Origin: Nymphaea colorata
Taxonomy: Eukaryota; Streptophyta; Magnoliopsida; Nymphaeales; Nymphaeaceae
Assembly (NCBI RefSeq): GCF_008831285.2
Contig: NC_045147.1
Location: forward strand, 892,001 to 956,000
Length of the DNA stretch: 64,000 bases
Reading direction: 5' to 3'
The notes beneath the pieces were generated by a model. The model did no database searches, was not told the origin of the DNA, and saw only the letters and a program-made list of their open reading frames with translations. A program made the position numbers and the translations under genes. This document shows positions 1 to 58,675 of the stretch, piece by piece (within the stretch, counting starts at the first letter, position 1; each line of letters begins with the position of its first letter).

Positions 1-2117
1 GATGAAGAAAGGAGGCAGACTTAGACCTTCACTTGGGGGATCAGATTTCCTCATGTCCACCTAAAATCATATATATTTAGTGAAATTATCCATGATTTAC
101 TTTCTTAGATTTAATTCACAAATATTTCAATACCTAAACAATGTATTATTCATGTTATCAAATGGTCGTTTTGAGTTATTGTGGGTGACATTCCTGCAAT
201 TATGTTTAACGTTAATAATGTATTTAGCAGTGGTCGAAAAAATAACCTTAGGTTAGTTCCTTCACCCTTTGCTTTAGGCAACATTCTTAAGCCAACATAT
301 TGAAAATTTTTTACTTTGACTCAATGGTTGAATAGAAGCATGGTACATTACCAAGGAATAAGGACAAAATATTAAAGCTTGAACTTTCATATTGTTAGCA
401 GCCAAGTTGGTAACTATGATTGATAATAAGTACTAAACAGCATTGACGGGCAAATCTACGAGCTTTCACCAATCTAAGATTGTTTGATTTATTTGACAAC
501 CACATCTTACCCAAAATTTTAGATTGTTATTGTTGAAGAGATCTAGAGGCACTGATCTGAAATCAAGATGCACGTAGATATCTTTATAATTAAGAACATA
601 AAGGATGGTACATAGATATGACAAATGCCTAAACTAAGAATCGAGTTCATTTTAGATACCATCTACTTTTTAGTTTTTGCTTCTTTCTTTTCCTCGGATC
701 TGACGTTACATGGGCAGGTGGATTGGGGAGGTCATTATAATGAAAGGCAATCAAATAATCAATGTTTTTGATCAATCCCAAGTCTTAGGAACATCATGTT
801 CAAGATGTTTGACAAGATCGTTGACCAAAATACATAAAATTGCTTAGCGTTGTTCTAATGTTGACTGTCTTGAATGTTCTTGCACTGCTTCTAAAAGTAT
901 GCCTCACGCTCTATATTGGGTTCGATTTATAGGGAAAAGATTCACGTTTTATCATAGGCAACATCTTTCTTTCCTATATTAGATGAAATCTTTGATTGAT
1001 CCCAAGATTGTCGCCTTTCTTTATCTTCAGATCTTACTGCCTTTTTCATCCGATCATAATATTCAATTAGCAGCTCTTCATCCGTTTTTTTATTGTCGTT
1101 ATCTTCTCCAACGGATTTGTGGCTCTTACCAATTTCCTTAACACCCAAGTGTTGAAGGTCATACCGTTCCTCCTATTCTCTCCTAGGTAGCAAACTTGCT
1201 TATGGTACTTCAGGGTAGCACTTCTCCTATACTTTAACTTGCATACTAACATCTTACTTTTACAACATAAAAAGTTAACATGAAATTTGAAACAGATATG
1301 GGTCGTCTGCCAACCCCTACCATTAGTCCGCCAACATAAAATCTCTCGTTGAAAACCACACATTATACTGCAGGGTGTGCATAGCACAAATAATATATGT
1401 ACACTCTCCTCAATGATCCTAACTTTGTAGAAGGGGTATGTATGAGGTTTAGTTGTTCAATAGAGAGTTCTGGCTATTATCTGATGGTTGTTATATTGGT
1501 TTTTGAATTGAATCTGTCAGGGAAAAGACTCAAAAAATGGGCTGAATCAAATTGAAATCCGAATTGTTCGTGAAATGGATCAATGAGAGTAAAAATATAA
1601 AAGATGTTTTTATAAATAAAATTAAAATTAGAAGATGAAAAATGCATTGTCCCAAGCATAACATGTTCATGAAGTAGTATGCAAAAACACGCTTGAAAGT
1701 CTGAAGGAATGTGAGAAAAGCGACCCACGTTTATATTGTACATATGGAGCTTCCACAAAAGGGAAAAAGTCATGAGATTGCCATATTAACTCCGACGTGG
1801 GGATGGTAACGGGGTAAAACTCATGCGTTCTTCTCCTCGTCTGGTTTTGGAGCGGTTTGCTGTGATTCAGTTTGATTGCATATTTTTCGTTCCCTATTCC
1901 ATCGATCAAAAGCCAAGCACAGTGAGAAGGAGAAACAAATCCCACTATCTCCAAACAACCTCATATTTATTTGGTATTGAACGGCCAAATCGATTTCCAC
2001 TGCTGGGGATTTCTTTCTTCCAGTTATCGGCTGCATCATCGAGTGAGCAGCTCATTTTTGTGCGCAAAGGGAAAATGGTCCACTTGTTTCTGTCTCAAAG
2101 GACTTGTGATGATGATA
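1..2117. other. No recognisable gene; upstream flank of decayed gene
   Basis: This is AT-rich sequence mirrored at 50120-52236. Short open frames occur, for example 942-1148 on the minus strand, whose lysine- and glutamate-rich peptide I do not recognise. The stretch at 1971-2117 is open in frame with the ATG at 2118 but reads like 5' leader sequence. No RNA gene or recognisable element was seen. Confidence 0.5.
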
Positions 2118-5100
2118 ATGGCGACATTGACATCAACGCCGGCGCCGCAAGCGGGATGGGGTTCACTTCTTGAAGAGCTGGGTTCCCTTCTACGGCAAGT
2201 AATTGTCGCCAACGGGCGGGCGGAGTCTCGTTTGTGGCTGTGCAACACCATTGCAAGCATAAATTCGATTGGGCCAAGAGAGCAGTGGGTGCTATTCAGG
2301 AAACTATTGGAATCAAGCTCACAGAGGCGTCGAATTGCAGCCCAAGTTTTGCAGTTGGTCTTCGAGAAGAAGCCAATTGCTTGCGAAGAAATGTTACATG
2401 CTGGAGAAGTTTTTTAGTGGTAATTTTTAAATGGTTGCTTTTAAGATTTATGCTTTTGGTTATTCCTACATGCATTAACACAATGTTTTTGTTTCGGGTG
2501 CTTTTTCCTCCTCTCAGACGAATCTTGATTTGGGATGTCGCTTTGGTCCTTTGAAAAAGCGCAGAAGTACTAAAACTGAATTTTGTGCAAGCTTTTGCTT
2601 CAAGTTTCCCCCTTTTCTTGTTGCATTTGATCATTGATTAGTGAAGACCCCCCTTCCTAGTAAATATATTTTGCACGAGCGGGTTCAAGTCTTAGCTCGA
2701 GGGAACTGCTTGCAATTGTTTATGGCATAAGGGGAGGCGTTAAGGGCACATGTATGGCCATTACTTTTCTAAGTCATAGTAAATTTTGGAGAGATGAAGA
2801 AGCGGTCATTTCACTAAAATTATCACAGCCTACCTACTGCCACTGTTTGTTAGTAGCAGTACTCCGTATACTTGTTGAGCTAAAGGCTGAAACTAACATG
2901 CATTTTATATGTACTGACATGCACCAATTTGCCATATGAAACTGTTTGCATCAAGTTAATTTGCTACCTATGGAAGGTGTTGGCTTCTCCATTCTGAGAT
3001 GCCTCTATGTGCTGAATTTGTCTCTTCCAGATGAAGGAATCTACCATAGTTTATCATCAAGTTGTGTATTTGTTAGTTTTCAGTATCTAATTTTAATTTG
3101 TTGCTTATCTAGTCATTTTTCAATGTTTTTTTTTATTTTTCATTTACGATTTTTATCAAAGTATCAGGATTTTTATTTATTTTTTAAAAATTTGTCATCT
3201 TTTTCCCGTTTTATTCCTGAGATATATAACTTTGCCGTTTTATACCCGTTTTTTTTCTCGCCATATAATACCCGTATACGTTTACTTTGGAGGCAGGTTC
3301 ATCATATATGTGTACACATGCATGCACATGCACCACGGTTCCCAATATGATCACCATTGAATTGGCATGGACAAGTTGCAAACTGTGTCAATGTCCAAAA
3401 CAAATAAAAAAGCTCGGAAAAAACATTACTTGAGAAGGGGGAGTCATCTCCAAATTTATACAAGGAGAACTTGAACTAGTTATTGACCAGCTAAGAAAAG
3501 GTCAAGGTCTAATCTTAATTAAAAAAACTGAGGAAAAGAGAAATGTATAACAATAAATATACATAAGAAAATAAAATTACTGGAACAGAAAAACAAATAT
3601 ATAAATCTGCAACGTATAGATGTGTATGTGTGCAACAAAGACATATAGACTATGATACAAGTATTGTACAAAAGTGTGTTTATATTTGCATGTGTGTATG
3701 CATGTATTAACGACTGTGTTCTTGTGCTGAAAATTTGTCGGTACTAGTCTGGCTCTTGATCGTTGCAGCTGCCAATGATTTGTTATAGTTGGTAAATGGT
3801 CTATTATATGCTGCGGGAATAGATTTTTAATTTTCAAACGTACTTTCTTCATGGCTTTTGTACAGGTAATCCAGGGCGCATTCTGCAGTGGTTTGGAAAC
3901 TTTGCTACTTCTGGCAAGTATGAGCACCAGAAGGGAGCTTGGGCAATATCCCAATGTGCTTTCATAAACAGAGACGTTTGCTGGAGGAGCTCAGTGGAAC
4001 GAGAAACATGGTCAATCACTAGCGATGGTTGCTACGAAGCCACACTATTTCCTTGATTTGGATGTGTTGAGGACAGTGGAGAATTTTCTGGAGAACGTCC
4101 CTGATTTTTGGGTATCAAATGAACTTGCAGAGACATTAAAGGATGGGAAATATTTCGTATTGATATGGAGTTCTTCACTGATCAGTTTACCCATTTAATG
4201 TATGAAGAGAATGCAGCAGATGTATGGGCTTCCATTGATGAATTTCTAAATGACGAGCAGTTCTCAAATCTCTGCAACCTTCTCTTGATTTTACTTAATG
4301 AAAGTGAGCTGTCTGAGTTTATGATTCACATACACAAAGTTTGTTCAAATTTGCACTCTAAAGTTTCTTGGCAAACTGAAGGGGCCATTCTCACCATCCT
4401 TTTGGCTTGAAATTTTACTTTTAACAAGTTCACACAAGCTAGCCATTGATGAATTGGTTCTATCAAATGCAGTTATTAATCACGGTCGCCAGTTGCTAGG
4501 TCTTGTACATATTGATGAACACATTGAGGAAAAAGATAAGACCAGTGAAATCCTTTCAAAAATAAATAGGATTCGGGATGAAGCCCAACACTGGTCACTG
4601 ATGTAGGAATGTACAAAAATAAACAGATTGGCAGCAATGAAATTACTTGGGCTTGAATCTTGGGTGGTGCATAGGCATTTGGCTTTGCAATGTAAATCTT
4701 CAGATTCATGGGAATCATTCTTCCTTGCAAATGGGATTGGCTTTTGCAAGTCTGCCACATATTCGCTAGTTGGTCGTGATGGCTCTTCACATAATGGTGG
4801 AAGTAGGACAGGTGATAGCAGTTCAGCCAGAGTTCCTCGAAACATAAAAAAAAGAGACATAGGAAAAAGAGAAAAAAGTACCGTGCTGACTACGACCATA
4901 GTTCCAGTGATGAATTGACAGAAATAGCAAGTTCAACAAGATGGGAAGGATTAGGGTCAGATGGATGTTGGTTGGTCTCAACTGACAATTATTCCTCTCC
5001 CTGGAGCAGTGTATGTATATCTCTTTCCCTAATTTTATTTTTGTGAGATTATTATACTGATGTAAATCATGTTTTCCAATAGAAAAAAGCTCGGGGAAAT

Positions 5101-5525
5101 TCTGGTTGGCAGACTCATGAAGCTTTCATTGTTTGCTTCATGACTGGTTTCAACTTTCAAGCACCTTGTTGAGAGGAAATTTCATCCGTTTATGAAACCC
5201 TTTCTCATGTATAAGCATTTAATTCAAAAGAATTTTACATCAAGTTTTACTGCTCCCTCATGTTTGTTGAGGATGAATTCCATGGCTTATTATAGACTGA
5301 GCAAATTTAATCTGTGCATTCTTCTCTGTCTTCATTTAGCTGTGTATTTTTGCAGTATCCACCTTTATCTTTTCTTTTTTTCTTTTCGTTTTGTTTTTTT
5401 TTTTCCTCTTAGTTTCTTACAGCTACTGCTTTCTCGTGGATGTGATATAGGCTGATCTACCAGAGCACCTGGCAAGACACTGTTTTTCGATCTGGGTGGC
5501 ATGGCTTTGCACAAAATGGTCTTAG
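2118..5525 (+). pseudogene. Decayed plant gene of unknown function, left copy
   Basis: The first exon starts at ATG 2118 (MATLTSTPAPQ...) and stays open to about 2408. A long exon begins after the acceptor at 3865 and ends at the donor at 5011 (GTATGT). The last exon, 5451-5525, encodes DLPEHLARHCFSIWVAWL and then stops. The order of recognisable blocks (NPGRILQWFGNFA, KPHYFLDLDVLRTVENFLE, LMYEENAADVW, LESWVVH, SWESFF, DLPEH) matches, from memory, a conserved uncharacterised plant protein; I cannot name it. Reading through needs frame changes near 3976-3995, 4147, 4380 and 4840, and TAG at 4604-4606 interrupts the conserved block before LESWVVH. The mirror copy shares most of these lesions. 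This copy has one more, GG instead of GGG near 3980. Several lesions are homopolymer contractions, so uncorrected assembly errors are a partial alternative to pseudogenisation. Confidence 0.6.
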
Positions 5526-7190
5526 TCTTCCAGCATACATAAAGTGGGCTTTAGTCTGGGGTTCTCCATTAAATCATATGGAACTTTATCTAGATGTGTG
5601 TTCAATTTTTAGTTTATGAAGGTTTTTACTTTATGGAGTTTGCCTGTAGACTAAGATGCTGCGACATTTCTGTGTACTTACACTGATAATTCCTGCATCC
5701 TTAAGTTCTTGTGCTTATTAGTCAAATTTGTTGAATTTCCTGATAAAACTAGCTACAAATGTCCGTGCAGGAGGTAGAAGACTCCAGCGGTCTTGGCTTC
5801 CAAATTCCCTGTATGAAACATCCAGGGTGCCGTGGCATTCCTTTTTGGAGCATATGCGCAGACCAAAGACAATCATTATAGTGGTGGTGTTTGGTGATAT
5901 TGGTATGGGAGCATTGTAGAGTTTCGTTTCTAATTGCCTGGTGGTGCCCAGTGCAAAACCACATGAATATCTCCTAGTCCTTGCTATCTGAATTAGGGCT
6001 GTCCTTCATTTGATGTCCCAAAAAATATGGGAAAAGGATAAATAAAAAAAGGGAATCAAGAGATGAAGGATGATCATTCTTCAATTAAATGTAGCACATC
6101 AATCATTAGTCTCATCCACATGTTAACTATTTGTTCACGCTACTCTGACAGCAAAAAGTTGTTGCATGAACTTGGTAAGTCTTCTCGTGCATATGGAGAT
6201 CACTTGGAGCTATGGATTCTGTGCACTTCCTGTGACATTTATCAGAGGCTGCTCTTGATAAAACCACATTTCAAAGATTTGTTCCTCGTAGCCTCTCAAA
6301 GGTTCTGTGCTTAGGTTTTAGGGGGCTTGGTTGTTCATACCCATGTAGATTTGCTCACTTTGGCTTGCTTTATGGTCATCCTGCCAAATGCTGCATCTGG
6401 ATTTAACATCAAACAACTAGGTTACATTTTTTATGCATGGAGTTATGGTGCATCCTATTTCGAGCTTTACAGTGGTTTTTGCACAGGTTGTATTGTCTTA
6501 ACATTTATATTTTTCTTTTGAACTTATCAATTCAATTGCTTCTTTTTTCTTGAATAGCTGACACAGTTCCTCTGAAAATATTACTCCTAGCAGAAATTTG
6601 CATTCCTTCTAAAGTAACATTTACAACATTAGTTTCCGAAGCTACAAATACCATATGTTCAGCCATCATTGTGAGATTCAATCTTTATATATTGAAAAGT
6701 CAGCAGCTCATGTTCACCGTTCATGATCATGAAGGTAGTTCAAAATAGTCGAAGAGATCATCCATCCTGTACTCAACCTTATTGACGACGATGGCAACTA
6801 TTGTGTATATATTTAACGCATATTGTTTAGAAAAAGTATTTTAACAGGGTACGATGCATCAAATTAATAATTGGTCAAGAAGAATCACAATGAAGCACTG
6901 AATTCGGTTGAACCACATGGAAAAGAGCAAAATGAAAAAACCTAAACAATAAAAATTCTGAACTAAAGGTGAGCAAACTTTTTCCTTGATATATTAACCA
7001 GCTGCAAGAAAAATCGCAAGGAAGCCTATGAATGAACCAAACCGATTAAGCTATCAAATGGACAGAATTAACCATGTTCGTTGACGGATTCTAACTAGAG
7101 AACAGGCTGCCTTCTTAATGCAAAGTGGTCACGGTTGTTGAACGGGAGGACAAACTAGGATTTTGTTAAATAAGCACGGCTTAACAACAA
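5526..7190. other. 3' flank and intergenic DNA, no gene seen
   Basis: No coding region was recognised. The short open frames at 6063-6314 and 6327-6521 lack family motifs and are probably 3' untranslated or intergenic sequence. It is mirrored at 45044-46709. Confidence 0.45.
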
Positions 7191-7275
7191 GGGGTGGTGG
7201 CGCAGTTGGCCAGTGCGTAGGTCTCATAGCTATTCGAGTGATCCTGAGGTCGAGAGTTTGAGCCTCTCTCACCCC
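7191..7275 (+). tRNA. tRNA-Met(CAT)-like gene with intron, left copy
   Basis: The acceptor arms GGGGTGG and TCACCCC pair over seven positions, with one G-T. The D arm (GCGC/GTGC), the anticodon loop CTCATA with CAT, and the T arm GAGAG/CTCTC are all present. About 12 bases after the anticodon (GCTATTCGAGTG) look like the short intron typical of plant elongator tRNA-Met. The internal A box (TGGCGCAGTTGG) and B box (GTTTGAGCC) fit polymerase III consensus. The T loop reads TTTGAGC instead of TTCGAGC, which removes C56 of the tRNA elbow, so the gene may be a pseudogene or the head of a tRNA-derived SINE. No CCA is encoded, as is normal in eukaryotes. Confidence 0.7.
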
Positions 7276-7393
7276 AATCCTCCACGCTCTCGCTCTTATG
7301 GCCGCCACTCATTTTCCTTTGGGAATCACTCTTATCCCGTAAAAACATTTGCCCCACTCACTTGTTTCTTTTGCCATGGAAAGAGCCTCCACC

Positions 7394-7683
7394 TAGGGCT
7401 GAACACGAGCCAAGCTCGAACTCGGCTCGACTAAGTAAGACCTCGAGCTCGACTCAGCTTGAGCTCGAAAATAGCTTGACTACACTGGCTCAAACTCAAC
7501 TCGATAGTCGCGTGTTGAGTTCGAGCTCGACAAACTCGTTTGATACTTACCCTTACTTGTTGAGCTCGATTAAGGCTCGATCAGTTGAACGAGTCGACTC
7601 GTGAACTCGAGCTCGACTCGTTAAACACATGATGGAGCTCGAACTCGTTTACGAGTCGACCTTGAGTAGCTTGTTCACCCCTA
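7394..7683. mobile_element. 290-bp hAT-type MITE, left copy
   Basis: The ends are imperfect terminal inverted repeats: TAGGGCTGAACACGAG at the left, and the reverse complement of TAGGGGTGAACAAGC at the right. The flanks repeat CTCCACC (7387-7393 and 7684-7690), a 7-bp direct repeat that extends to 8 bp with one mismatch. The interior is dense in GAGCTCG and GAGTCGA words and has no coding capacity. Its termini resemble those of the 728-bp element at 35121, which has a perfect 8-bp duplication, so both probably belong to one non-autonomous hAT family. Confidence 0.75.
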
Positions 7684-7690
7684 CTCCACC

Positions 7691-8782
7691 ATGGTCGTCC
7701 TTATCTCTTCCTCCTATGTGATATGAGCAGGCACATGAACCGGATCGGTTCCACTCCGATTTTGATAGGTATCAGTAAGGACAACATTATGTTAAGACCT
7801 GAAACCTGATCCCAGTCAACTCAGGTTGGAATTTGGGATCAGGTAAGTTCAATATTGTATATGCACAAGGAACATATTCATTAGAAAGCTGGAAGTTATA
7901 TATGTATATGTATATATATATATATGTAGACACACACATAGCATGTAATATTGAATCAATGTCTCAACCTGCTACGCCGACTTCATCATATAGAACCTGC
8001 TTTTTTTGGGGTAGGCCTGACTAAGTTCAGAGCTTGGAGATCACACATGCAATCGCGAATGGTGATACCAATGATTTCAAAGTTGTAAAACATACTATAA
8101 GAAGAAGCATTGTTCAGCAGTACCAGACGATATTTATATTAATATATAAATATAGTTAATCGTAATAAAATGTGTATACTTATTTATATATTTATAAGTG
8201 GTTGATCGGTTCCTACTTTTTTAAAGAACTGGAGCTGTTAGGGTTGGGTTATGATTCGAGTGGGCTGGATTGCTATAATCGTTCTGCACAGATTGATGTA
8301 TAACTTTTAACAGAAAAAGTTACCAGATTCATAGGCAAGTAAATTTTCCAGATTGACAAAATGGTGCTGTGAAATGCTTGAACTGACTAAGAAAATTCGT
8401 TTCAGCCCAAATTTCTATGTATGTGTAAATTAATCAGGATAAAGTAAAACTTCCTGAACTTCAAACGGGCAGAAAATGGTGACTTTTTTTCTTTTTCTTT
8501 TTCAAAATAGCAGCAGCATTCAGAAGTTAGAATCAACGTATTGGTGAAAGATATTCAATGTATATGTACAACAGCGACATACATGATATGGGAAGCCAGT
8601 TAAAGCTGCAAAGTTTCTGCTAAGGCGAAAAAGGTTGCTGCACGTGGAGCTCATACACAGCTATAAGAAGGAAAAACAAAGTTGAATGGAACTAAGACAA
8701 GGTTTTCCTTATCCTACAAGAGAGCACAAGCCCAGTTGCCTATGATCGCCTTGAAGATGAAGTTGATCTGGTTGAGCTACTA
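7691..8782. other. Intergenic DNA, no gene seen
   Basis: This is AT-rich sequence with a short TA tract near 7906-7927. It lies downstream of the NPH3-domain fragment and probably includes its 3' untranslated region. It is mirrored at 43452-44543. Confidence 0.4.
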
Positions 8783-9427
8783 TTACCAAATGGGCTTAGT
8801 TTTGCTAAACTTTGAGGATAATGAACTTAAAAACTTATTAGAGCTTGTTCTCTCAATATCTTGCTTCATACAAGCATGGTCTTTTTCTAAGTCATTTAAT
8901 CTCATCCTTAAACGTGCTAGCTCTAGCTTTAGCTCCCGGTTCTCTCGTCTTAATGATGCATAGTTATCACGAGGGGATATGGCAGCACTGAGAGCACCAC
9001 TACTAATGCGTTGAGACTGATGGAAACTTTGCTGGTCTTCATCTGCATGAGCAGAAAATAAGGCATTCGGGAGTCTTAACTGTTCAAAATAAAGAACTTG
9101 AACAACCGACTGCGCAGGAAGGCGGCTCATTCGTGCACCTGCCTCAGCTGATAATTTCTGGAAATCAATCAATTTACATAGCTTCTTCCGCTCCAAGTCA
9201 GGCAACCCTGGATGGGCCTGCAGCAGGAAAAAAATTGGATTGCTGCTGTGTAAGTACTAAATCAGACAGAACTTGTGAAGTAAATGAAATCACCGGAAGC
9301 ACATGCCTACAAAAGAAACATAAGCTTGTTCACAAGTTGGAAAGAACATCTGACCTTGTTGTCTGGACACAACCCACTTTACAGAACGCAAAGATAATTT
9401 TTACGTATACAAATTTCTAAACATATA

Positions 9428-9498
<71 letters not shown>

Positions 9499-9726
9499 AT
9501 ATATGCAAATTGACTATAGTCTATAGCATACATCACAGACCACCTAAACATAGATCAAAATATTGACGTTTGAAAATATTTAAGAAACAAGATGAAGGAA
9601 AAAAGTGTTTTTCCTTAACTTCTTTAAGGTAGATATCAATGGCTCGATAAAGTCCATCATCTTGAGTACGTGTATGCGCCGCTAAAGCTTCAGCAATTGC
9701 CATGAACCGGTTCTCAGATAGTTGGA
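8783..9726 (-). pseudogene. NPH3-domain (phototropism signalling family) 3' fragment, left copy
   Basis: This is the mirror of 42521-43451; the residue-level description is given at that entry. The last exon occupies 8783-9217 and the preceding exon about 9620-9726, both on the minus strand. The intron between them holds an AT-dinucleotide tract (9421-9503) about 13 bp longer than in the right arm. No BTB domain or upstream NPH3 exons exist before the gap, so this is a truncated gene. Confidence 0.75.
9421..9503. repeat. AT-dinucleotide microsatellite, left arm
   Basis: This is an interrupted run of AT/TA units inside the NPH3-fragment intron. The mirrored tract at about 42744-42810 is shorter, which makes it the largest single length difference between the outer arms. 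Confidence 0.85.
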
Positions 9727-10531
9727 TCTTAATATGTTTCACAAAACCAAACCAACACACAACACAAGGTCCACCATCAATCCGTAGTTTGAAGATGAAA
9801 ATGCAAATCCAGAACTCATAAGCACATAAAAAGCGTTACATATGAATAGGCCACTTCAAAAGAAAGCCCTAACAGTGCAAAGAACCTCAAAATGTAACCC
9901 AAGTGAAACAACGCAAATCTCAGAGCTCTCACTTCCGTTGCATCATTAGTGCCACCATTTGTGACAAAAGTAAGATTACTATTCCAAATATTGTGGAGTT
10001 ACCAGGGCGACCGCAAAACATACCAAGAATCGATATCATCAACCCACTGAGATCGCCAGACTAACGGTGGATGAGATGGAGAAAAAAAAAAAAAGGAGGT
10101 CCTCAACTTGTAGCGTTCAGAAGTCAAAGTTTTAATCATGTTCTCAGAAAAGAAATTAGCTTACTTTTCCATTTCTCTATTTCTTAAAGCATTGTTTTGC
10201 CTTTCAATCAGAAAATTAAAAATCCAAAAAGACCTAGGCAGGGTCCTCACCCGGTAGAAGTCGAAAAAACCGGGACATTGTTTCCTAGAAACTGATACCT
10301 AATACAGGGACATCCAGTGCCGACTCCAGATGACAAGACCACAAGTCATGTAACAGCAACCAAAAAGACCGTTCATTCTCCGGTACAATTGTCTAACAAA
10401 ATTAGGATGCATAATCCCACTAAACCACAACCTTAAACCTAAAAATAAAAATTGTCTGAAGAGGGCATCTAAACTGGCTCAGTCATAAACAGGAGTGCTC
10501 AGAAGGCAGAACAGATTCAAAAGAATAAGAA
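9727..10531. other. Mirror of RPL5 3' flank, ends at contig edge
   Basis: This is the reverse complement of 41709-42520. It corresponds to the 3' untranslated and downstream sequence of RPL5 and stops 11 bp short of the RPL5 stop codon, where the N run begins. No separate gene was seen. Confidence 0.7.
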
Positions 10532-10631
10532 NNNNNNNNNNNNNNNNNNNNNNNNNNNNNNNNNNNNNNNNNNNNNNNNNNNNNNNNNNNNNNNNNNNNN
10601 NNNNNNNNNNNNNNNNNNNNNNNNNNNNNNN
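10532..10631. other. Assembly gap of exactly 100 N
   Basis: A fixed run of 100 N is the usual placeholder for a scaffold join of unknown size. The sequence before it mirrors 41709 and the sequence after it mirrors 34041. The expected content is therefore the mirror of 34042-41708, about 7.67 kb including RPL5. Confidence 0.97.
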
Positions 10632-10844
10632 TAGCGAGAGCTTCAGACTGAAGCCGTCTTCTGCATTCCTCTTTCTCCTGTTCCTCAGAAAACCAATCTT
10701 TATTAGGTTCTCTCTCTCTCTCTCTCTCTCGCGTGTGCGCGCTCTTTGTCCGGCGCGATTTTCATTTCTTTGCTCTGGCTTTCCACCTTCGTTGATTCTT
10801 CTTCTCTTTGTCTATCACTCGCGTAGGTGCCACAAACTTCAAGG

Positions 10845-13534: not shown

Positions 13535-14814
13535 GTAACAGTCTATATCAGTTTGGTTTAGATTCATAAGTATGATGAAGTTGTTATTACTCCTCTTTTT
13601 ATGTGCACCTCAGAACCTTTAAGGTTTAAGGTCCACACATAGAGTGACCAACTCATGCCATTTTGTGCTAATGTATTTCAGTTCACACCGAAATGAGGAT
13701 GCAAATAAAATGACATTAATAATTGAAGACTTGAAGCAAATTAAAGAAGTCGTAATTGCAAAGTGCAAATGAAACATACTGTTTCCGTTTGGTCTATTCA
13801 TTTTTTTGTTGGAGCAGTTGTGTTGAGTGAATTGATAATAAAGTCTAGTTTGACTTTTGAATACGATGATAAAAAGTATCAAGTTGTCAAATATGTAAGT
13901 CATTTGCTTCCTTTTAATTCCATTAATAAAGGAGCTTCAAGACCATTTGAAATTATTTTTCTAATATTTGTGGCCCGACACTGTTTCTTCTATTTTCGAC
14001 AGTTGATCTATGTTATCTTCCTTGCTAGTTTTTCCCACTACACTTGGATAAATTTCAGAAAATATAAATTCAAACATTTCTTGGCTATTTCATAGTTTCC
14101 ATGAGTTTATTCAAAACAATTCCTCGACAAATTTAACTTGAATTTCTAATTCGATGAAGGCGGTGAATATTCTTTATGTAAATTTTTTAGTTTACTCCAA
14201 AGACCAAAATAAGGAAATGAAATATAGAGTTGCTTGCCTGCATATGTCTCAACAAAATCAGATTTCTGGAAAAAGGCATAAATATATTGTTGAGAGCACT
14301 GTAAGCATGATGTATGACAACAATGTCCCCAGTACTCTGTGGACGGACAGAACAGGAAATGCATAAATGCACATCTGGAACTAAAGAAAAAGACATTAAG
14401 ATTGAAATGGAGGACATAGAGGTCATTTGAAATGGAGCATACAAAGGTCATAAGTAAAAATGACAAAGCCATACGGGAATTTCATGTAGTTACGTGCTCA
14501 AAATTAAAAATGACCAGCAGATTTCACAGTGGGCATCATAAATCTTCTTCCCATGATAATTTTAGAAAATAAATCGTCTTATTTTACTTTTTTGGCATTC
14601 ATTTATGATGGTCTATAGGACTCTACACATTTTTTCATGCGTTTGTTATAAAGGATATCAGTGTAATGGTCTTGTGATTAGAAATGTTAAAATTTTATGT
14701 GGTATAATTTTCATGAGAGTGAGTTTGATATGTCTTAGTATATACATGCTATCAAGTTTCGAACTTTCCAGCACAAAAGTTTACTATAAATTCTCAGTTC
14801 CTTTTATCTAAATT
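13535..14814. other. 3' side of B3 gene, no exon recognised
   Basis: The B3 reading frame should continue past the donor at 13535, but I could not recognise a further exon here. The open frames at 13763-14095 and 14154-14366 have no family motifs. It is mirrored at 29856-31135. Confidence 0.4.
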
Positions 14815-21335: not shown

Positions 21336-21521
21336 ATAGGTGGTTCCGTTGAGTATATAGGCTAGGGTCGAGCCTAGGCTCACGGGTGCCGGTCAATGTT
21401 GACCGAAATGAGGGTTTAGGTGCGGTGAGGGTTAACCTAGCTAATAGGTGGTTCCGTTGGGTATATAGGCTAGGGTCGAGCCTAGGCTCACGGGTGCCGG
21501 TCAATGTTGACCGAAATGAGG
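21336..21521. repeat. Tandem duplication, period 108 bp
   Basis: A block of about 77 bp beginning ATAGGTGGTTCCGTTG occurs at 21336 and again at 21444. It is nearly identical over the shared part, including AGGCTAGGGTCGAGCCTAGG, which is itself a partial palindrome. Confidence 0.9.
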
Positions 21522-21840
21522 AAAGGGTTGACTAAGTAGGAGGTTGTCTAAAATGGACTTAGCTGAATCCTAACCCAGGTCAATTCGGTCAAGGGTTACT
21601 CGAGGTAGGCTCGAGTCACTAAGGGAGGTTACCAAAGAAGTGGGCTCGGTGGGGAGAGTTGACCTATCTTTTGACTAAGGCAAGTGGTGTCGTTTAGGTG
21701 GGCTCGGCAAGGGACCTAGGTGAGGTGTTGGCGCATGAGGTCTCCTAGCTGGGTGGGGTTTGACTTGGTCGGTCAAACAAAGGATAGGGCGCCGATGCTT
21801 GCCACGTGGCAAGATGGGTGGACACGACAGAGTCAGCTAG

Positions 21841-41698: not shown

Positions 41699-42520
41699 TG
41701 AAAGAGGAATTTTCTTATTCTTTTGAATCTGTTCTGCCTTCTGAGCACTCCTGTTTATGACTGAGCCAGTTTAGATGCCCTCTTCAGACAATTTTTATTT
41801 TTAGGTTTAAGGTTGTGGTTTAGTGGGATTATGCATCCTAATTTTGTTAGACAATTGTACCGGAGAATGAACGGTCTTTTTTGGTTGCTGTTACATGACT
41901 TGTGGTCTTGTCATCTGGAGTCGGCACTGGATGTCCCTGTATTAGGTACTCAGTTTTCTAGGAAACAATGTCCCGGTTTTTTCGACTTCTACCGGGTGAG
42001 GACCCTGCCTAGGTCTTTTTGGATTTTTAATTTTCTGATTGAAAGGCAAAACAATGCTTTAAGAAATAGAGAAATGGAAAAGTAAGCTAATTTCTTTTCT
42101 GAGAACATGATTAAAACTTTGACTTCTGAACGCTACAAGTTGAGGACCTCCTTTTTTTTTTTTTTCTCCATCTCATCCACCGTTAGTCTGGCGATCTCAG
42201 TGGGTTGATGATATCGATTCTTGGTATGTTTTGCGGTCGCCCTGGTAACTCCACAATATTTGGAATAGTAATCTTACTTTTGTCACAAATGGTGGCACTA
42301 ATGATGCAACGGAAGTGAGAGCTCTGAGATTTGCGTTGTTTCACTTGGGTTACATTTTGAGGTTCTTTGCACTGTTAGGGCTTTCTTTTGAAGTGGCCTA
42401 TTCATATGTAACGCTTTTTATGTGCTTATGAGTTCTGGATTTGCATTTTCATCTTCAAACTACGGATTGATGGTGGACCTTGTGTTGTGTGTTGGTTTGG
42501 TTTTGTGAAACATATTAAGA
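41699..42520. other. RPL5 3' flank
   Basis: This is the 3' untranslated and downstream region. Arm homology begins at 41709, 11 bp after the stop codon. The expected upstream exons of the NPH3-type gene are not present in it. Confidence 0.6.
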
Positions 42521-42753
42521 TCCAACTATCTGAGAACCGGTTCATGGCAATTGCTGAAGCTTTAGCGGCGCATACACGTACTCAAGATGATGGACTTTAT
42601 CGAGCCATTGATATCTACCTTAAAGAAGTTAAGGAAAAACACTTTTTTCCTTCATCTTGTTTCTTAAATATTTTCAAACGTCAATATTTTGATCTATGTT
42701 TAGGTGGTCTGTGATGTATGCTATAGACTATAGTCAATTTGCATATATATATA

Positions 42754-42806
<53 letters not shown>

Positions 42807-43451
42807 TATATGTTTAGAAATTTGTATACGTAAAAATTATCTTTGCGTTCTGTAAAGTGGGTTGTGTCCAGACAACAAGGTCAGATGTTCTTTCCAACTT
42901 GTGAACAAGCTTATGTTTCTTTTGTAGGCATGTGCTTCCGGTGATTTCATTTACTTCACAAGTTCTGTCTGATTTAGTACTTACACAGCAGCAATCCAAT
43001 TTTTTTCCTGCTGCAGGCCCATCCAGGGTTGCCTGACTTGGAGCGGAAGAAGCTATGTAAATTGATTGATTTCCAGAAATTATCAGCTGAGGCAGGTGCA
43101 CGAATGAGCCGCCTTCCTGCGCAGTCGGTTGTTCAAGTTCTTTATTTTGAACAGTTAAGACTCCCGAATGCCTTATTTTCTGCTCATGCAGATGAAGACC
43201 AGCAAAGTTTCCATCAGTCTCAACGCATTAGTAGTGGTGCTCTCAGTGCTGCCATATCCCCTCGTGATAACTATGCATCATTAAGACGAGAGAACCGGGA
43301 GCTAAAGCTAGAGCTAGCACGTTTAAGGATGAGATTAAATGACTTAGAAAAAGACCATGCTTGTATGAAGCAAGATATTGAGAGAACAAGCTCTAATAAG
43401 TTTTTAAGTTCATTATCCTCAAAGTTTAGCAAAACTAAGCCCATTTGGTAA
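42521..43451 (+). pseudogene. NPH3-domain (phototropism signalling family) 3' fragment, right copy
   Basis: The first retained exon (about 42521-42627) encodes QLSENRFMAIAEALAAHTR and DGLYRAIDIYLKE. The second (43017-43451) follows CTGCAG and encodes AHPGLPDLERKKLCKLIDFQKLS, VVQVLYFEQLRL, then SPRDNYASLRRENRELKLELARL, a coiled coil, and ends in PIW. These are the C-terminal half of the NPH3 domain and the coiled-coil tail of RPT2/NPH3-type proteins, which act as plasma-membrane adaptors of phototropin and auxin signalling. The frame is clean, but the BTB domain and the first part of NPH3 are absent: RPL5 ends only 0.8 kb upstream. It is therefore a 3' gene fragment. The TTAAAG/GTTAAG donor choice is inferred. 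Confidence 0.82.
42744..42810. repeat. AT-dinucleotide microsatellite, right arm
   Basis: This is the counterpart of 9421-9503, shorter by about 13 bp. Confidence 0.85.
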
Positions 43452-44543
43452 TAGTAGCTCAACCAGATCAACTTCATCTTCAAGGCGATCATAGGCAACT
43501 GGGCTTGTGCTCTCTTGTAGGATAAGGAAAACCTTGTCTTAGTTCCATTCAACTTTGTTTTTCCTTCTTATAGCTGTGTATGAGCTCCACGTGCAGCAAC
43601 CTTTTTCGCCTTAGCAGAAACTTTGCAGCTTTAACTGGCTTCCCATATCATGTATGTCGCTGTTGTACATATACATTGAATATCTTTCACCAATACGTTG
43701 ATTCTAACTTCTGAATGCTGCTGCTATTTTGAAAAAGAAAAAGAAAAAAAGTCACCATTTTCTGCCCGTTTGAAGTTCAGGAAGTTTTACTTTATCCTGA
43801 TTAATTTACACATACATAGAAATTTGGGCTGAAACGAATTTTCTTAGTCAGTTCAAGCATTTCACAGCACCATTTTGTCAATCTGGAAAATTTACTTGCC
43901 TATGAATCTGGTAACTTTTTCTGTTAAAAGTTATACATCAATCTGTGCAGAACGATTATAGCAATCCAGCCCACTCGAATCATAACCCAACCCTAACAGC
44001 TCCAGTTCTTTAAAAAAGTAGGAACCGATCAACCACTTATAAATATATAAATAAGTATACACATTTTATTACGATTAACTATATTTATATATTAATATAA
44101 ATATCGTCTGGTACTGCTGAACAATGCTTCTTCTTATAGTATGTTTTACAACTTTGAAATCATTGGTATCACCATTCGCGATTGCATGTGTGATCTCCAA
44201 GCTCTGAACTTAGTCAGGCCTACCCCAAAAAAAGCAGGTTCTATATGATGAAGTCGGCGTAGCAGGTTGAGACATTGATTCAATATTACATGCTATGTGT
44301 GTGTCTACATATATATATATATACATATACATATATAACTTCCAGCTTTCTAATGAATATGTTCCTTGTGCATATACAATATTGAACTTACCTGATCCCA
44401 AATTCCAACCTGAGTTGACTGGGATCAGGTTTCAGGTCTTAACATAATGTTGTCCTTACTGATACCTATCAAAATCGGAGTGGAACCGATCCGGTTCATG
44501 TGCCTGCTCATATCACATAGGAGGAAGAGATAAGGACGACCAT
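43452..44543. other. Intergenic DNA, no gene seen
   Basis: This is the mirror of 7691-8782. It probably starts with the NPH3-fragment 3' untranslated region. Confidence 0.4.
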
Positions 44544-44550
44544 GGTGGAG

Positions 44551-44840
44551 TAGGGGTGAACAAGCTACTCAAGGTCGACTCGTAAACGAGTTCGAGCTCC
44601 ATCATGTGTTTAACGAGTCGAGCTCGAGTTCACGAGTCGACTCGTTCAACTGATCGAGCCTTAATCGAGCTCAACAAGTAAGGGTAAGTATCAAACGAGT
44701 TTGTCGAGCTCGAACTCAACACGCGACTATCGAGTTGAGTTTGAGCCAGTGTAGTCAAGCTATTTTCGAGCTCAAGCTGAGTCGAGCTCGAGGTCTTACT
44801 TAGTCGAGCCGAGTTCGAGCTTGGCTCGTGTTCAGCCCTA
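44551..44840. mobile_element. 290-bp hAT-type MITE, right copy
   Basis: This is the mirror of 7394-7683. It begins TAGGGGTGAA, ends TTCAGCCCTA, and is flanked by GGTGGAG at 44544-44550 and 44841-44847. Confidence 0.75.
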
Positions 44841-44958
44841 GGTGGAGGCTCTTTCCATGGCAAAAGAAACAAGTGAGTGGGGCAAATGTTTTTACGGGAT
44901 AAGAGTGATTCCCAAAGGAAAATGAGTGGCGGCCATAAGAGCGAGAGCGTGGAGGATT

Positions 44959-45043
44959 GGGGTGAGAGAGGCTCAAACTCTCGACCTCAGGATCACTCGA
45001 ATAGCTATGAGACCTACGCACTGGCCAACTGCGCCACCACCCC
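44959..45043 (-). tRNA. tRNA-Met(CAT)-like gene with intron, right copy
   Basis: It is identical in structure to 7191-7275: intron after CAT, and a T loop with T instead of C at position 56. It stands 119 bp from the MITE. Confidence 0.7.
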
Positions 45044-46709
45044 TTGTTGTTAAGCCGTGCTTATTTAACAAAATCCTAGTTTGTCCTCCCGTTCAACAAC
45101 CGTGACCACTTTGCATTAAGAAGGCAGCCTGTTCTCTAGTTAGAATCCGTCAACGAACATGGTTAATTCTGTCCATTTGATAGCTTAATCGGTTTGGTTC
45201 ATTCATAGGCTTCCTTGCGATTTTTCTTGCAGCTGGTTAATATATCAAGGAAAAAGTTTGCTCACCTTTAGTTCAGAATTTTTATTGTTTAGGTTTTTTC
45301 ATTTTGCTCTTTTCCATGTGGTTCAACCGAATTCAGTGCTTCATTGTGATTCTTCTTGACCAATTATTAATTTGATGCATCGTACCCTGTTAAAATACTT
45401 TTTCTAAACAATATGCGTTAAATATATACACAATAGTTGCCATCGTCGTCAATAAGGTTGAGTACAGGATGGATGATCTCTTCGACTATTTTGAACTACC
45501 TTCATGATCATGAACGGTGAACATGAGCTGCTGACTTTTCAATATATAAAGATTGAATCTCACAATGATGGCTGAACATATGGTATTTGTAGCTTCGGAA
45601 ACTAATGTTGTAAATGTTACTTTAGAAGGAATGCAAATTTCTGCTAGGAGTAATATTTTCAGAGGAACTGTGTCAGCTATTCAAGAAAAAAGAAGCAATT
45701 GAATTGATAAGTTCAAAAGAAAAATATAAATGTTAAGACAATACAACCTGTGCAAAAACCACTGTAAAGCTCGAAATAGGATGCACCATAACTCCATGCA
45801 TAAAAAATGTAACCTAGTTGTTTGATGTTAAATCCAGATGCAGCATTTGGCAGGATGACCATAAAGCAAGCCAAAGTGAGCAAATCTACATGGGTATGAA
45901 CAACCAAGCCCCCTAAAACCTAAGCACAGAACCTTTGAGAGGCTACGAGGAACAAATCTTTGAAATGTGGTTTTATCAAGAGCAGCCTCTGATAAATGTC
46001 ACAGGAAGTGCACAGAATCCATAGCTCCAAGTGATCTCCATATGCACGAGAAGACTTACCAAGTTCATGCAACAACTTTTTGCTGTCAGAGTAGCGTGAA
46101 CAAATAGTTAACATGTGGATGAGACTAATGATTGATGTGCTACATTTAATTGAAGAATGATCATCCTTCATCTCTTGATTCCCTTTTTTTATTTATCCTT
46201 TTCCCATATTTTTTGGGACATCAAATGAAGGACAGCCCTAATTCAGATAGCAAGGACTAGGAGATATTCATGTGGTTTTGCACTGGGCACCACCAGGCAA
46301 TTAGAAACGAAACTCTACAATGCTCCCATACCAATATCACCAAAACACCACCACTATAATGATTGTCTTTGGTCTGCGCATATGCTCCAAAAAGGAATGC
46401 CACGGCACCCTGGATGTTTCATACAGGGAATTTGGAAGCCAAGACCGCTGGAGTCTTCTACCTCCTGCACGGACATTTGTAGCTAGTTTTATCAGGAAAT
46501 TCAACAAATTTGACTAATAAGCACAAGAACTTAAGGATGCAGGAATTATCAGTGTAAGTACACAGAAATGTCGCAGCATCTTAGTCTACAGGCAAACTCC
46601 ATAAAGTAAAAACCTTCATAAACTAAAAATTGAACACACATCTAGATAAAGTTCCATATGATTTAATGGAGAACCCCAGACTAAAGCCCACTTTATGTAT
46701 GCTGGAAGA
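45044..46709. other. Intergenic DNA, no gene seen
   Basis: This is the mirror of 5526-7190. No gene was recognised. Confidence 0.4.
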
Positions 46710-49700
46710 CTAAGACCATTTTGTGCAAAGCCATGCCACCCAGATCGAAAAACAGTGTCTTGCCAGGTGCTCTGGTAGATCAGCCTATATCACATCCACG
46801 AGAAAGCAGTAGCTGTAAGAAACTAAGAGGAAAAAAAAAAAACAAAACGAAAAGAAAAAAAGAAAAGATAAAGGTGGATACTGCAAAAATACACAGCTAA
46901 ATGAAGACAGAGAAGAATGCACAGATTAAATTTGCTCAGTCTATAATAAGCCATGGAATTCATCCTCAACAAACATGAGGGAGCAGTAAAACTTGATGTA
47001 AAATTCTTTTGAATTAAATGCTTATACATGAGAAAGGGTTTCATAAACGGATGAAATTTCCTCTCAACAAGGTGCTTGAAAGTTGAAACCAGTCATGAAG
47101 CAAACAATGAAAGCTTCATGAGTCTGCCAACCAGAATTTCCCCGAGCTTTTTTCTATTGGAAAACATGATTTACATCAGTATAATAATCTCACAAAAATA
47201 AAATTAGGGAAAGAGATATACATACACTGCTCCAGGGAGAGGAATAATTGTCAGTTGAGACCAACCAACATCCATCTGACCCTAATCCTTCCCATCTTGT
47301 TGAACTTGCTATTTCTGTCAATTCATCACTGGAACTATGGTCGTAGTCAGCACGGTACTTTTTTCTCTTTTTCCTATGTCTCTTTTTTTTATGTTTCGAG
47401 GAACTCTGGCTGAACTGCTATCACCTGTCCTACTTCCACCATTATGTGAAGAGCCATCACGACCAACTAGCGAATATGTGGCAGACTTGCAAAAGCCAAT
47501 CCCATTTGCAAGGAAGAATGATTCCCATGAATCTGAAGATTTACATTGCAAAGCCAAATGCCTATGCACCACCCAAGATTCAAGCCCAAGTAATTTCATT
47601 GCTGCCAATCTGTTTATTTTTGTACATTCCTACATCAGTGACCAGTGTTGGGCTTCATCCCGAATCCTATTTATTTTTGAAAGGATTTCACTGGTCTTAT
47701 CTTTTTCCTCAATGTGTTCATCAATATGTACAAGACCTAGCAACTGGCGACCGTGATTAATAACTGCATTTGATAGAACCAATTCATCAATGGCTAGCTT
47801 GTGTGAACTTGTTAAAAGTAAAATTTCAAGCCAAAAGGATGGTGAGAATGGCCCCTTCAGTTTGCCAAGAAACTTTAGAGTGCAAATTTGAACAAACTTT
47901 GTGTATGTGAATCATAAACTCAGACAGCTCACTTTCATTAAGTAAAATCAAGAGAAGGTTGCAGAGATTTGAGAACTGCTCGTCATTTAGAAATTCATCA
48001 ATGGAAGCCCATACATCTGCTGCATTCTCTTCATACATTAAATGGGTAAACTGATCAGTGAAGAACTCCATATCAATACGAAATATTTCCCATCCTTTAA
48101 TGTCTCTGCAAGTTCATTTGATACCCAAAAATCAGGGACGTTCTCCAGAAAATTCTCCACTGTCCTCAACACATCCAAATCAAGGAAATAGTGTGGCTTC
48201 GTAGCAACCATCGCTAGTGATTGACCATGTTTCTCGTTCCATTGAGCTCCTCCCAGCAAACGTCTCTGTTTATGAAAGCACATTGGGATATTGCCCAAGC
48301 TCCCTTCTGGTGCTCATACTTGCCAGAAGTAGCAAAGTTTCCAAACCACTGCAGAATGCGCCCTGGATTACTTGTACAAAAGCCATGAAGAAAGTACGTT
48401 TGAAAATTAAAAATCTATTCCCGCAGCATATAATAGACCATTTACCAACTATAACAAATCATTGGCAGCTGCAACGATCAAGAGCCAGACTAGTACCGAC
48501 AAATTTTCAGCACAAGAACACAGTCGTTAATACATGCATACACACATGCAAATATAAACACACTTTTGTACAATACTTGTATCATAGTCTATATGTCTTT
48601 GTTGCACACATACACATCTATACGTTGCAGATTTATATATTTGTTTTTCTGTTCCAGTAATTTTATTTTCTTATGTATATTTATTGTTATACATTTCTCT
48701 TTTCCTCAGTTTTTTTAATTAAGATTAGACCTTGACCTTTTCTTAGCTGGTCAATAACTAGTTCAAGTTCTCCTTGTATAAATTTGGAGATGACTCCCCC
48801 TTCTCAAGTAATGTTTTTTCCGAGCTTTTTTATTTGTTTTGGACATTGACACAGTTTGCAACTTGTCCATGCCAATTCAATGGTGATCATATTGGGAACC
48901 GTGGTGCATGTGCATGCATGTGTACACATATATGATGAACCTGCCTCCAAAGTAAACGTATACGGGTATTATATGGCGAGAAAAAAAACGGGTATAAAAC
49001 GGCAAAGTTATATATCTCAGGAATAAAACGGGAAAAAGATGACAAATTTTTAAAAAATAAATAAAAATCCTGATACTTTGATAAAAATCGTAAATGAAAA
49101 ATAAAAAAAAACATTGAAAAATGACTAGATAAGCAACAAATTAAAATTAGATACTGAAAACTAACAAATACACAACTTGATGATAAACTATGGTAGATTC
49201 CTTCATCTGGAAGAGACAAATTCAGCACATAGAGGCATCTCAGAATGGAGAAGCCAACACCTTCCATAGGTAGCAAATTAACTTGATGCAAACAGTTTCA
49301 TATGGCAAATTGGTGCATGTCAGTACATATAAAATGCATGTTAGTTTCAGCCTTTAGCTCAACAAGTATACGGAGTACTGCTACTAACAAACAGTGGCAG
49401 TAGGTAGGCTGTGATAATTTTAGTGAAATGACCGCTTCTTCATCTCTCCAAAATTTACTATGACTTAGAAAAGTAATGGCCATACATGTGCCCTTAACGC
49501 CTCCCCTTATGCCATAAACAATTGCAAGCAGTTCCCTCGAGCTAAGACTTGAACCCGCTCGTGCAAAATATATTTACTAGGAAGGGGGGTCTTCACTAAT
49601 CAATGATCAAATGCAACAAGAAAAGGGGGAAACTTGAAGCAAAAGCTTGCACAAAATTCAGTTTTAGTACTTCTGCGCTTTTTCAAAGGACCAAAGCGAC

Positions 49701-50119
49701 ATCCCAAATCAAGATTCGTCTGAGAGGAGGAAAAAGCACCCGAAACAAAAACATTGTGTTAATGCATGTAGGAATAACCAAAAGCATAAATCTTAAAAGC
49801 AACCATTTAAAAATTACCACTAAAAAACTTCTCCAGCATGTAACATTTCTTCGCAAGCAATTGGCTTCTTCTCGAAGACCAACTGCAAAACTTGGGCTGC
49901 AATTCGACGCCTCTGTGAGCTTGATTCCAATAGTTTCCTGAATAGCACCCACTGCTCTCTTGGCCCAATCGAATTTATGCTTGCAATGGTGTTGCACAGC
50001 CACAAACGAGACTCCGCCCGCCCGTTGGCGACAATTACTTGCCGTAGAAGGGAACCCAGCTCTTCAAGAAGTGAACCCCATCCCGCTTGCGGCGCCGGCG
50101 TTGATGTCAATGTCGCCAT
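46710..50119 (-). pseudogene. Decayed plant gene of unknown function, right copy
   Basis: This is the mirror of 2118-5525, with ATG at 50119 and stop at 46710-46712. It shares the TAG nonsense codon and the breaks in the KDGKYF, SWQTEG and NIKKR regions with the left copy. It differs near 48250, where it keeps GGG (CWEEL readable) and has CAATGG instead of CAGTGG, yet still needs a frame change before the EKHGQSLA block. The lesions therefore mostly predate the split of the two arms. Confidence 0.6.
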
Positions 50120-52236
50120 TATCATCATCACAAGTCCTTTGAGACAGAAACAAGTGGACCATTTTCCCTTTGCGCACAAAAATGAGCTGCTCACTCGATG
50201 ATGCAGCCGATAACTGGAAGAAAGAAATCCCCAGCAGTGGAAATCGATTTGGCCGTTCAATACCAAATAAATATGAGGTTGTTTGGAGATAGTGGGATTT
50301 GTTTCTCCTTCTCACTGTGCTTGGCTTTTGATCGATGGAATAGGGAACGAAAAATATGCAATCAAACTGAATCACAGCAAACCGCTCCAAAACCAGACGA
50401 GGAGAAGAACGCATGAGTTTTACCCCGTTACCATCCCCACGTCGGAGTTAATATGGCAATCTCATGACTTTTTCCCTTTTGTGGAAGCTCCATATGTACA
50501 ATATAAACGTGGGTCGCTTTTCTCACATTCCTTCAGACTTTCAAGCGTGTTTTTGCATACTACTTCATGAACATGTTATGCTTGGGACAATGCATTTTTC
50601 ATCTTCTAATTTTAATTTTATTTATAAAAACATCTTTTATATTTTTACTCTCATTGATCCATTTCACGAACAATTCGGATTTCAATTTGATTCAGCCCAT
50701 TTTTTGAGTCTTTTCCCTGACAGATTCAATTCAAAAACCAATATAACAACCATCAGATAATAGCCAGAACTCTCTATTGAACAACTAAACCTCATACATA
50801 CCCCTTCTACAAAGTTAGGATCATTGAGGAGAGTGTACATATATTATTTGTGCTATGCACACCCTGCAGTATAATGTGTGGTTTTCAACGAGAGATTTTA
50901 TGTTGGCGGACTAATGGTAGGGGTTGGCAGACGACCCATATCTGTTTCAAATTTCATGTTAACTTTTTATGTTGTAAAAGTAAGATGTTAGTATGCAAGT
51001 TAAAGTATAGGAGAAGTGCTACCCTGAAGTACCATAAGCAAGTTTGCTACCTAGGAGAGAATAGGAGGAACGGTATGACCTTCAACACTTGGGTGTTAAG
51101 GAAATTGGTAAGAGCCACAAATCCGTTGGAGAAGATAACGACAATAAAAAAACGGATGAAGAGCTGCTAATTGAATATTATGATCGGATGAAAAAGGCAG
51201 TAAGATCTGAAGATAAAGAAAGGCGACAATCTTGGGATCAATCAAAGATTTCATCTAATATAGGAAAGAAAGATGTTGCCTATGATAAAACGTGAATCTT
51301 TTCCCTATAAATCGAACCCAATATAGAGCGTGAGGCATACTTTTAGAAGCAGTGCAAGAACATTCAAGACAGTCAACATTAGAACAACGCTAAGCAATTT
51401 TATGTATTTTGGTCAACGATCTTGTCAAACATCTTGAACATGATGTTCCTAAGACTTGGGATTGATCAAAAACATTGATTATTTGATTGCCTTTCATTAT
51501 AATGACCTCCCCAATCCACCTGCCCATGTAACGTCAGATCCGAGGAAAAGAAAGAAGCAAAAACTAAAAAGTAGATGGTATCTAAAATGAACTCGATTCT
51601 TAGTTTAGGCATTTGTCATATCTATGTACCATCCTTTATGTTCTTAATTATAAAGATATCTACGTGCATCTTGATTTCAGATCAGTGCCTCTAGATCTCT
51701 TCAACAATAACAATCTAAAATTTTGGGTAAGATGTGGTTGTCAAATAAATCAAACAATCTTAGATTGGTGAAAGCTCGTAGATTTGCCCGTCAATGCTGT
51801 TTAGTACTTATTATCAATCATAGTTACCAACTTGGCTGCTAACAATATGAAAGTTCAAGCTTTAATATTTTGTCCTTATTCCTTGGTAATGTACCATGCT
51901 TCTATTCAACCATTGAGTCAAAGTAAAAAATTTTCAATATGTTGGCTTAAGAATGTTGCCTAAAGCAAAGGGTGAAGGAACTAACCTAAGGTTATTTTTT
52001 CGACCACTGCTAAATACATTATTAACGTTAAACATAATTGCAGGAATGTCACCCACAATAACTCAAAACGACCATTTGATAACATGAATAATACATTGTT
52101 TAGGTATTGAAATATTTGTGAATTAAATCTAAGAAAGTAAATCATGGATAATTTCACTAAATATATATGATTTTAGGTGGACATGAGGAAATCTGATCCC
52201 CCAAGTGAAGGTCTAAGTCTGCCTCCTTTCTTCATC
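50120..52236. other. Outer end of right arm, no recognisable gene
   Basis: This is the mirror of 1-2117. The open frame 51089-51295 (plus) encodes a lysine- and glutamate-rich peptide of unknown nature. Confidence 0.45.
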
Positions 52237-52518
52237 CTCTCAGTGTTTAGGGCTGGTTCAAAATGGCACCAAATTGTTTCTACTTACATATATTAATATA
52301 TTCTTTTTACAACACAAAAAGTTGTACCTCATTTTGCAGTACATGAATTTGACATTATGGGAGATTTAAATAGAAACCCACTGCTTACCAATTATCGGAG
52401 ATTTAAATAGAAACCCACTGCTTACCAAGTGTTCCGTTCACTACGCCTACCCTCTTCACAATACCTAGACACAAGATAAAATGTTTCTAGATTTCCAATA
52501 CTCAAAATCTATTATTCA

Positions 52519-55825: not shown

Positions 55826-55845
55826 GTGTGGGCAATTGCCCACAC
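55826..55845. repeat. 20-bp perfect palindrome GTGTGGGCAATTGCCCACAC
   Basis: It is a perfect inverted repeat without spacer. The inner 18 bp recurs at 58658-58675. Both are close to GGCTCC(A/G)CC sequence. Such sequences fit internal or end regions of a plant DNA-transposon family, but no boundaries could be fixed. Confidence 0.8.
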
Positions 55846-58657: not shown

Positions 58658-58675
58658 TGTGGGCAATTGCCCACA
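58658..58675. repeat. Second copy of the TGTGGGCAATTGCCCACA palindrome
   Basis: It is identical to the inner 18 bp of the palindrome at 55826 and is followed within 20 bp by GTGGCTCCGCCC. Confidence 0.8.

Follow-up and report, generated by a model that had tools for sequence, protein, structure and literature searches.

When two long stretches of an assembled sequence are mirror images of each other, one must ask whether the inverted repeat was made in the plant or in the assembly. The window analyzed here, a stretch of 64,000 nucleotides, raises this question in both of its forms. It holds two long and nearly identical inverted segments that flank a spacer, and one of those segments is broken by a gap. 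Our answer, which we consider moderately probable, is a genuine and young fold-back inverted duplication at a plant nuclear locus, whose left arm has been poorly assembled.

Layout of the inverted repeat

Comparison of the window with itself by BLAST gave two long inverted matches. The outer match pairs 1-10531 with 52236-41712 (99.79% identity over 10538 columns, with 2 mismatches and 10 gap openings). The inner match pairs 10633-19183 with 34040-25487 (99.94% over 8554 columns, with 2 mismatches and 3 gap openings). The two are collinear, and the similarity between the arms is far above chance. The inverted mirror pairs reported in the initial annotation of this DNA are indeed present in the assembly.

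Judged within the window only, with copy number in the genome set aside, the layout is that of two inverted copies with a spacer between them (Table 1). Only ~19.08 kb of arm can be compared on both sides; at the identities given above, this is a palindrome in the sense of arms of tens of kb that are more than 99% identical. No gap interrupts 10632-64000, where the spacer joins the right arm to the inner part of the left. Position 1 pairs with position 52236. Position 1 is, of course, the edge of the window, and the outer end of the palindrome lies beyond view; the mirror may extend leftward past it.

The arms had been put at 26.7 kb or more and taken as one repeat rather than two. That length is an extrapolation. 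Segment 34042-41711 of the right arm is without a left counterpart, and 26.7 kb per arm presumes that the N gap hides the missing part. The view that there is one repeat agrees with the matching order and orientation of the two matches, while it rests on the scaffolding across the N gap.

Table 1. Features of the window, with positions counted from its first base
Feature	Position	Strand	Basis
Outer part of left arm, where the contig before the gap ends; mirrors 41712-52236	1..10531	-	self-BLAST, 99.79%
Left arm, tRNA-like gene, identical to right-arm copy	7191-7276	+	RF00005, 40.7 bits
Gap of 100 N within left arm; faces right-arm 34042-41711	10532..10631	.	only N run in window
Left arm, inner part; mirrors 25487-34040	10632..19183	-	self-BLAST, 99.94% from 10633
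Spacer, 6303 bases, not mirrored in other arm	19184..25486	.	edges from self-BLAST and arm comparison
Copia element, 5'-truncated, reverse transcriptase to RNase H, frames broken	19271..20600	+	PF07727 RVT_2; RNase H by eye
Probable 3' LTR of spacer copia element, after purine-rich tract	24069..24270	+	read by eye
RPL5 fragment; mirrors right-arm 38736-39976 at 98%	24266..25491	-	BLAST, Pfam, sequence comparison
Right arm, gap-free; at least this long	25487..52236	+	self-BLAST
Inferred breakpoint junction, 5 bp microhomology TTTGT common to RPL5 and arm	25487..25491	.	comparison with right-arm RPL5 gene
Right arm, degenerate RVT_2 match, below Pfam cut-off	~29.2-29.65 kb	-	Pfam
B3 DNA-binding domain exon, open in right arm; left mirror frameshifted at 13459	31112..31342	-	PF02362, E 3.9e-09
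RPL5 (60S ribosomal protein L5) gene with introns; left counterpart position is the N gap	38412..41698	+	PF17144, PF14204
End of NPH3-family gene; mirrored in left arm	42523..43450	+	PF03000, E 1.6e-08, one frame
Right arm, tRNA-like gene	44958..45043	-	RF00005, 40.7 bits

Genes in the arms and flank

Judged by its genes, which include members of the plant families B3 and NPH3, this is probably plant nuclear DNA. The Pfam scan covered the forward frames of 18900-25000, 25000-34800, 34000-43900, 43000-52800 and 54100-63900, and the minus frames of 25000-34800, 43000-52800 and 54100-63900. The left arm (1-18900) entered the scan through its mirror in the right arm, in the frames listed.

In the right-arm RPL5 gene, PF17144 was found in three frames and PF14204 in one; its stop codon was read by eye. 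A second frame of the NPH3-family gene matched PF03000 below the Pfam cut-off. The left tRNA-like copy was called Ser(cga) by ARAGORN with introns allowed, a doubtful reading; run without the intron option, ARAGORN found no tRNA.

Just past the last mirrored base seen is a GC-rich, repeat-laden stretch (52500-54200), with direct repeats at 53190-53387/54002-54199 and 52801-52968/53750-53910. Farther along, an open frame of more than 330 codons on the minus strand (62997-63998) reaches the window edge. A weak RVT_2 match near 63.7-63.9 kb falls below the Pfam cut-off, and the frame is probably part of another copia element.

The spacer

The spacer starts with ~90 bases of unassigned origin, followed by a copia element (RVT_2 matches with E 1.5e-32 and 2.6e-12, at ~19271-19849) whose RNase H part and end near 20600 were read by eye. 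Also by eye, the element appears interrupted by ~3.4 kb of GC-rich DNA (GC 0.535 and 0.541 in two 2-kb bins). Beyond this lies 24069..24270, which, read by eye against the usual copia layout, is probably an LTR. Among matches of at least 100 bases, BLAST within the spacer gave the RPL5 fragment and one direct repeat only. The GC-rich part contains a direct duplication of ~565 bases (21913-22477 / 22590-23142, 96.7%).

The RPL5 fragment lies at the far end of the spacer. It stops inside an exon, exactly where the right arm starts. Compared with the right-arm gene, it has 5 substitutions in ~1226 bases (0.4%), together with repeat-length changes and a 5-base indel, which has the look of true divergence. 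At 24924 (39308 in the gene), a Cys codon, read by eye, replaces a conserved Arg codon. The fragment is probably a dead copy. The 1.24-kb inverted match (24266-25495/38736-39976) carries RPL5 exons, and a transposon origin for it, also considered, was rejected on that ground.

The central junction

The left arm ceases to match at 19183, which is the exact mirror of 25487. Both arms therefore end at the same base, and one breakpoint can explain the center. If one edge of the spacer is the native continuation of the arm and the other is a breakpoint, then a single event would account for both. Here, the RPL5 edge makes the better breakpoint because an exon is cut there. This choice of edge is, of course, an argument from parsimony.

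At this edge, an inner breakpoint with inverted microhomology (TTTGT) lies at the far end of the spacer, where the right-arm RPL5 gene, a paralogue, stands in for the unbroken sequence of the broken copy. Of 199162 inverted pairs drawn at random from the window, 0.64% shared at least 5 bp, which puts the chance at 0.0064 for a microhomology that was measured after the junction had been looked at.

Could an assembler have made this junction? A common breakpoint of 5 bp would be too short for an assembler to invent, and at least one read should therefore hold it. A misjoin through RPL5 homology was considered for the inner junction and rejected. The path leaves RPL5 in mid-exon to enter the arm, and a misjoin that followed homology would not leave it there.

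Differences between the arms

Alignment with MAFFT gave 5 substitutions in ~19.08 kb (3865, 3994, 9487, 18849 and 18937), or 0.03%. BLAST counts 4; the fifth, at 9487, sits in an AT tract. One-base indels are more frequent; in all ten the left arm is the one that lacks a base, and nine fall in homopolymers (two-sided sign test, 0.002; a block at 10292 was divided by eye into two of these losses). One such loss, at 13459, disrupts the B3 frame, which the right arm keeps open. The only length change in the opposite direction is in the AT tract at ~9448, which is 13 bases longer in the left arm. The individual differences named in the initial annotation exist, displaced by 1-2 bases: 18849/25821, 3994/48242, T11/T12 at 5394/46842, and the AT tract.

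These differences are unevenly spread. The first 3864 bases of the window are free of them; three fall within 130 bases (3865-3994) and two within 90 bases (18849-18937).

The annotation offered two readings of this near identity, one of which was two alleles joined head to head. In general form, this holds that an assembler or scaffolder joined the locus to its allele or to a homologous copy carried by the other haplotype. Such a product would indeed come with a contig break and a 100-N gap like those of the left arm. Joined alleles should, however, differ chiefly by substitutions, in keeping with heterozygosity, and substitutions are here the rarer class, 5 against 10 one-way losses. This pattern seems to suit consensus error better than two alleles. 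Further, the joins between spacer and arms are free of gaps, and the inner junction shares only 5 bases. Joined alleles thus fit poorly, and we consider them improbable; for the left contig by itself they are easier to accept. The similarity of the arms may also reflect homozygosity of this stretch, or a contig present in duplicate.

The other reading, a very recent inverted duplication, is the one that fits better, with its one breakpoint, its 5 bp of inverted microhomology and its unmirrored 6.3-kb spacer. Near identity need not, of course, mean youth. A real but older palindrome might have had its arms kept alike by gene conversion between them, as on sex chromosomes. The arms are far more alike than the RPL5 fragment is to the gene (0.03% against 0.4% substitutions), as this would predict, and willow provides a plant precedent (PMC7023750). 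Nothing in the window, however, dates the palindrome or points to a sex-linked region, and we rate this as more improbable still than joined alleles.

By its pattern of losses, the left arm looks less well polished than the right. It follows that the true age of the arms may be below what the raw counts suggest. The poor consensus is not uniform, given that the first 3864 bases are identical to the right arm. One-sided losses fit a thinly covered contig end; they are equally expected of an artefact. Taken alone, one-sided errors and a gap are no evidence that the palindrome is real.

The gap in the left arm

The sole N run in the window is exactly 100 bases long and is probably a placeholder. 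The contig to its right ends 8.55 kb into the left arm. The contig to its left carries the left arm on, in correct order and orientation. The facing 7.67 kb of the right arm, with the RPL5 gene, has no partner in the left arm, and we presume that the N gap hides its left counterpart.

The right-arm counterparts of the two gap edges carry a 9-base direct repeat, TCTTTTGAA, at 34040-34048 and 41719-41727. Within 12, 15 and 20 bases either side, they share 5, 8 and 9 bases. With 20 bases either side, 9 or more shared bases occurred in 0.54% of 8000 random pairs, a figure for a word that was sought only after the edges had been seen. The left arm may have lost RPL5 by deletion through this repeat. 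The left contig keeps to the right-arm path for 7 bases beyond the repeat, which speaks against such a deletion. Insertion of a 7.67-kb mobile element into the right arm, with TCTTTTGAA as its target duplication, was also considered. It is not supported. When the first 300 bases of the segment were compared with its last 314, the longest inverted word in common had 8 bases, at offsets 96 and 277, away from the ends.

The most serious competitor to a genuine duplication is an assembly artefact. Here, a single fold-back or chimeric molecule, or a few of them, would have arisen in library preparation or during amplification and given the inner left arm (10632-19183); the left contig would be a redundant copy of the locus, scaffolded alongside. 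The left-arm gap and the poorer consensus would also follow from this, including the one-base loss that breaks the B3 frame and the contig that ends 8.55 kb into the arm. Such molecules exist. One survey counted ~0.55-0.6% of genomic ONT reads as fold-back, with segments ~2 kb apart in an example read (PMC12870357). Fold-back also arises in vitro in whole-genome amplification. Palindromic reads are numerous after amplification, and among PacBio reads from an unamplified control 0.5% were flagged too (PMC6218980).

The artefact nevertheless needs two separate faults that by chance gave correct order and orientation. Moreover, the survey tool defines fold-back reads as having segments that map no more than 200 bp apart; here, there are 6.3 kb of genomic spacer and a junction with microhomology (PMC12870357). 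Fold-back reads were virtually absent from PacBio HiFi data in this survey, which would weigh against an artefact here if such reads were used. An artefact is, on balance, rather unlikely, and a genuine palindrome is the likelier of the two.

Comparison with known systems

As to mechanism, the layout most resembles a fold-back duplication. Among the closest published cases are human inverted duplications (Hermetz et al., 2014, PMC3907307). In that report, a spacer was present at 21 of 21 sequenced junctions (766-70466 bp, median 3428), with inverted microhomology of 2-8 bp in 13 of the 21, longer repeats in 3 and insertions in 5. Both the spacer length and the microhomology seen here fall within these ranges. 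The two have in common the inverted copies, a spacer that is mostly of a few kb, the inner breakpoint and the short inverted microhomology. Unlike the present case, the human ones are large events at chromosome ends beside terminal deletions, translocations or rings, documented by array and junction data. The present case is from a plant, and is known from the assembled window alone, with its outer end beyond it. The literature searches returned no paper on fold-back duplication in plants by title, and one of them gave chiefly papers on sex chromosomes, which does not show that none exists.

By size, the nearest plant structure found is the pair of W palindromes of willow (Salix purpurea), W.P1 and W.P2. 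These have arms of ~20 kb that are more than 99% identical, a 6.9-kb deletion in one of the arms, and a spacer that contains LTR fragments (3.6 kb in the table, 2.6 kb in the text; PMC7023750). They resemble the present structure in being plant nuclear palindromes of similar arm size and identity with LTR sequence in the spacer. They differ in gene content (RR, SMR, HCT and others in willow; RPL5, NPH3 and B3 here) and in the sex linkage and gene conversion reported for willow. The inverted repeats described from poplar are smaller (PMC7465354).

Fold-back and amplification artefacts in reads likewise have inverted copies and near identity (PMC12870357, PMC6218980). A fold-back read should also be symmetric about its middle. 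Unlike fold-back reads as the first of these defines them, the present structure has an assembled genomic spacer of 6303 bases.

A proposed fold-back origin

From the repeat, the common inner end of the arms, the truncated RPL5 fragment, the microhomology and the one-sided indels, we infer a break, a copying and a collapse. A break inside an upstream RPL5 copy would leave a free end. This end would fold back on its own strand and pair, via TTTGT, with a site 6.3 kb inside. The paired end would then prime copying outwards, to give the copy, a 6.3-kb loop and the original, with one breakpoint at 25487-25491. This assumes that 19184 to ~19270 is the native continuation of the arm and that the right-arm RPL5 gene shows how the broken copy looked before the break. 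Both the spacer and the microhomology agree with the fold-back mechanism as published.

The left arm would then have been assembled badly. The near-identical middle of the arm, with RPL5, would have collapsed into the right arm, with a placeholder gap left between two contig ends of low quality. A real palindrome with arms longer than the reads could be assembled in this way, with one arm whole and the other as two thinly supported contig ends around a hole.

Significance

At the join, the sequence looks as if a broken DNA end had folded back to copy itself, and the structure would be at most another case of a known kind. The complete statement, in which fold-back at a break within a copy of a ribosomal protein gene very recently gave rise to a plant palindrome whose arms measure 26.7 kb or more, is tentative and on the doubtful side. 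Were the palindrome an artefact, several genes would be falsely doubled in the assembly, and the site would be one to correct.

If the complete statement is true, the NPH3 and B3 genes are doubled, as is RPL5 if it is hidden in the gap, and the B3 copies are transcribed toward each other across the spacer. The palindrome would then have been caught near its birth, ahead of gene conversion, and the gap edges, with their 9-base repeat, would hint at an RPL5 loss that has already taken place in the left arm. If real, the locus offers a plant fold-back duplication with a breakpoint resolved to the single base, and illustrates how palindromes that carry genes can arise.
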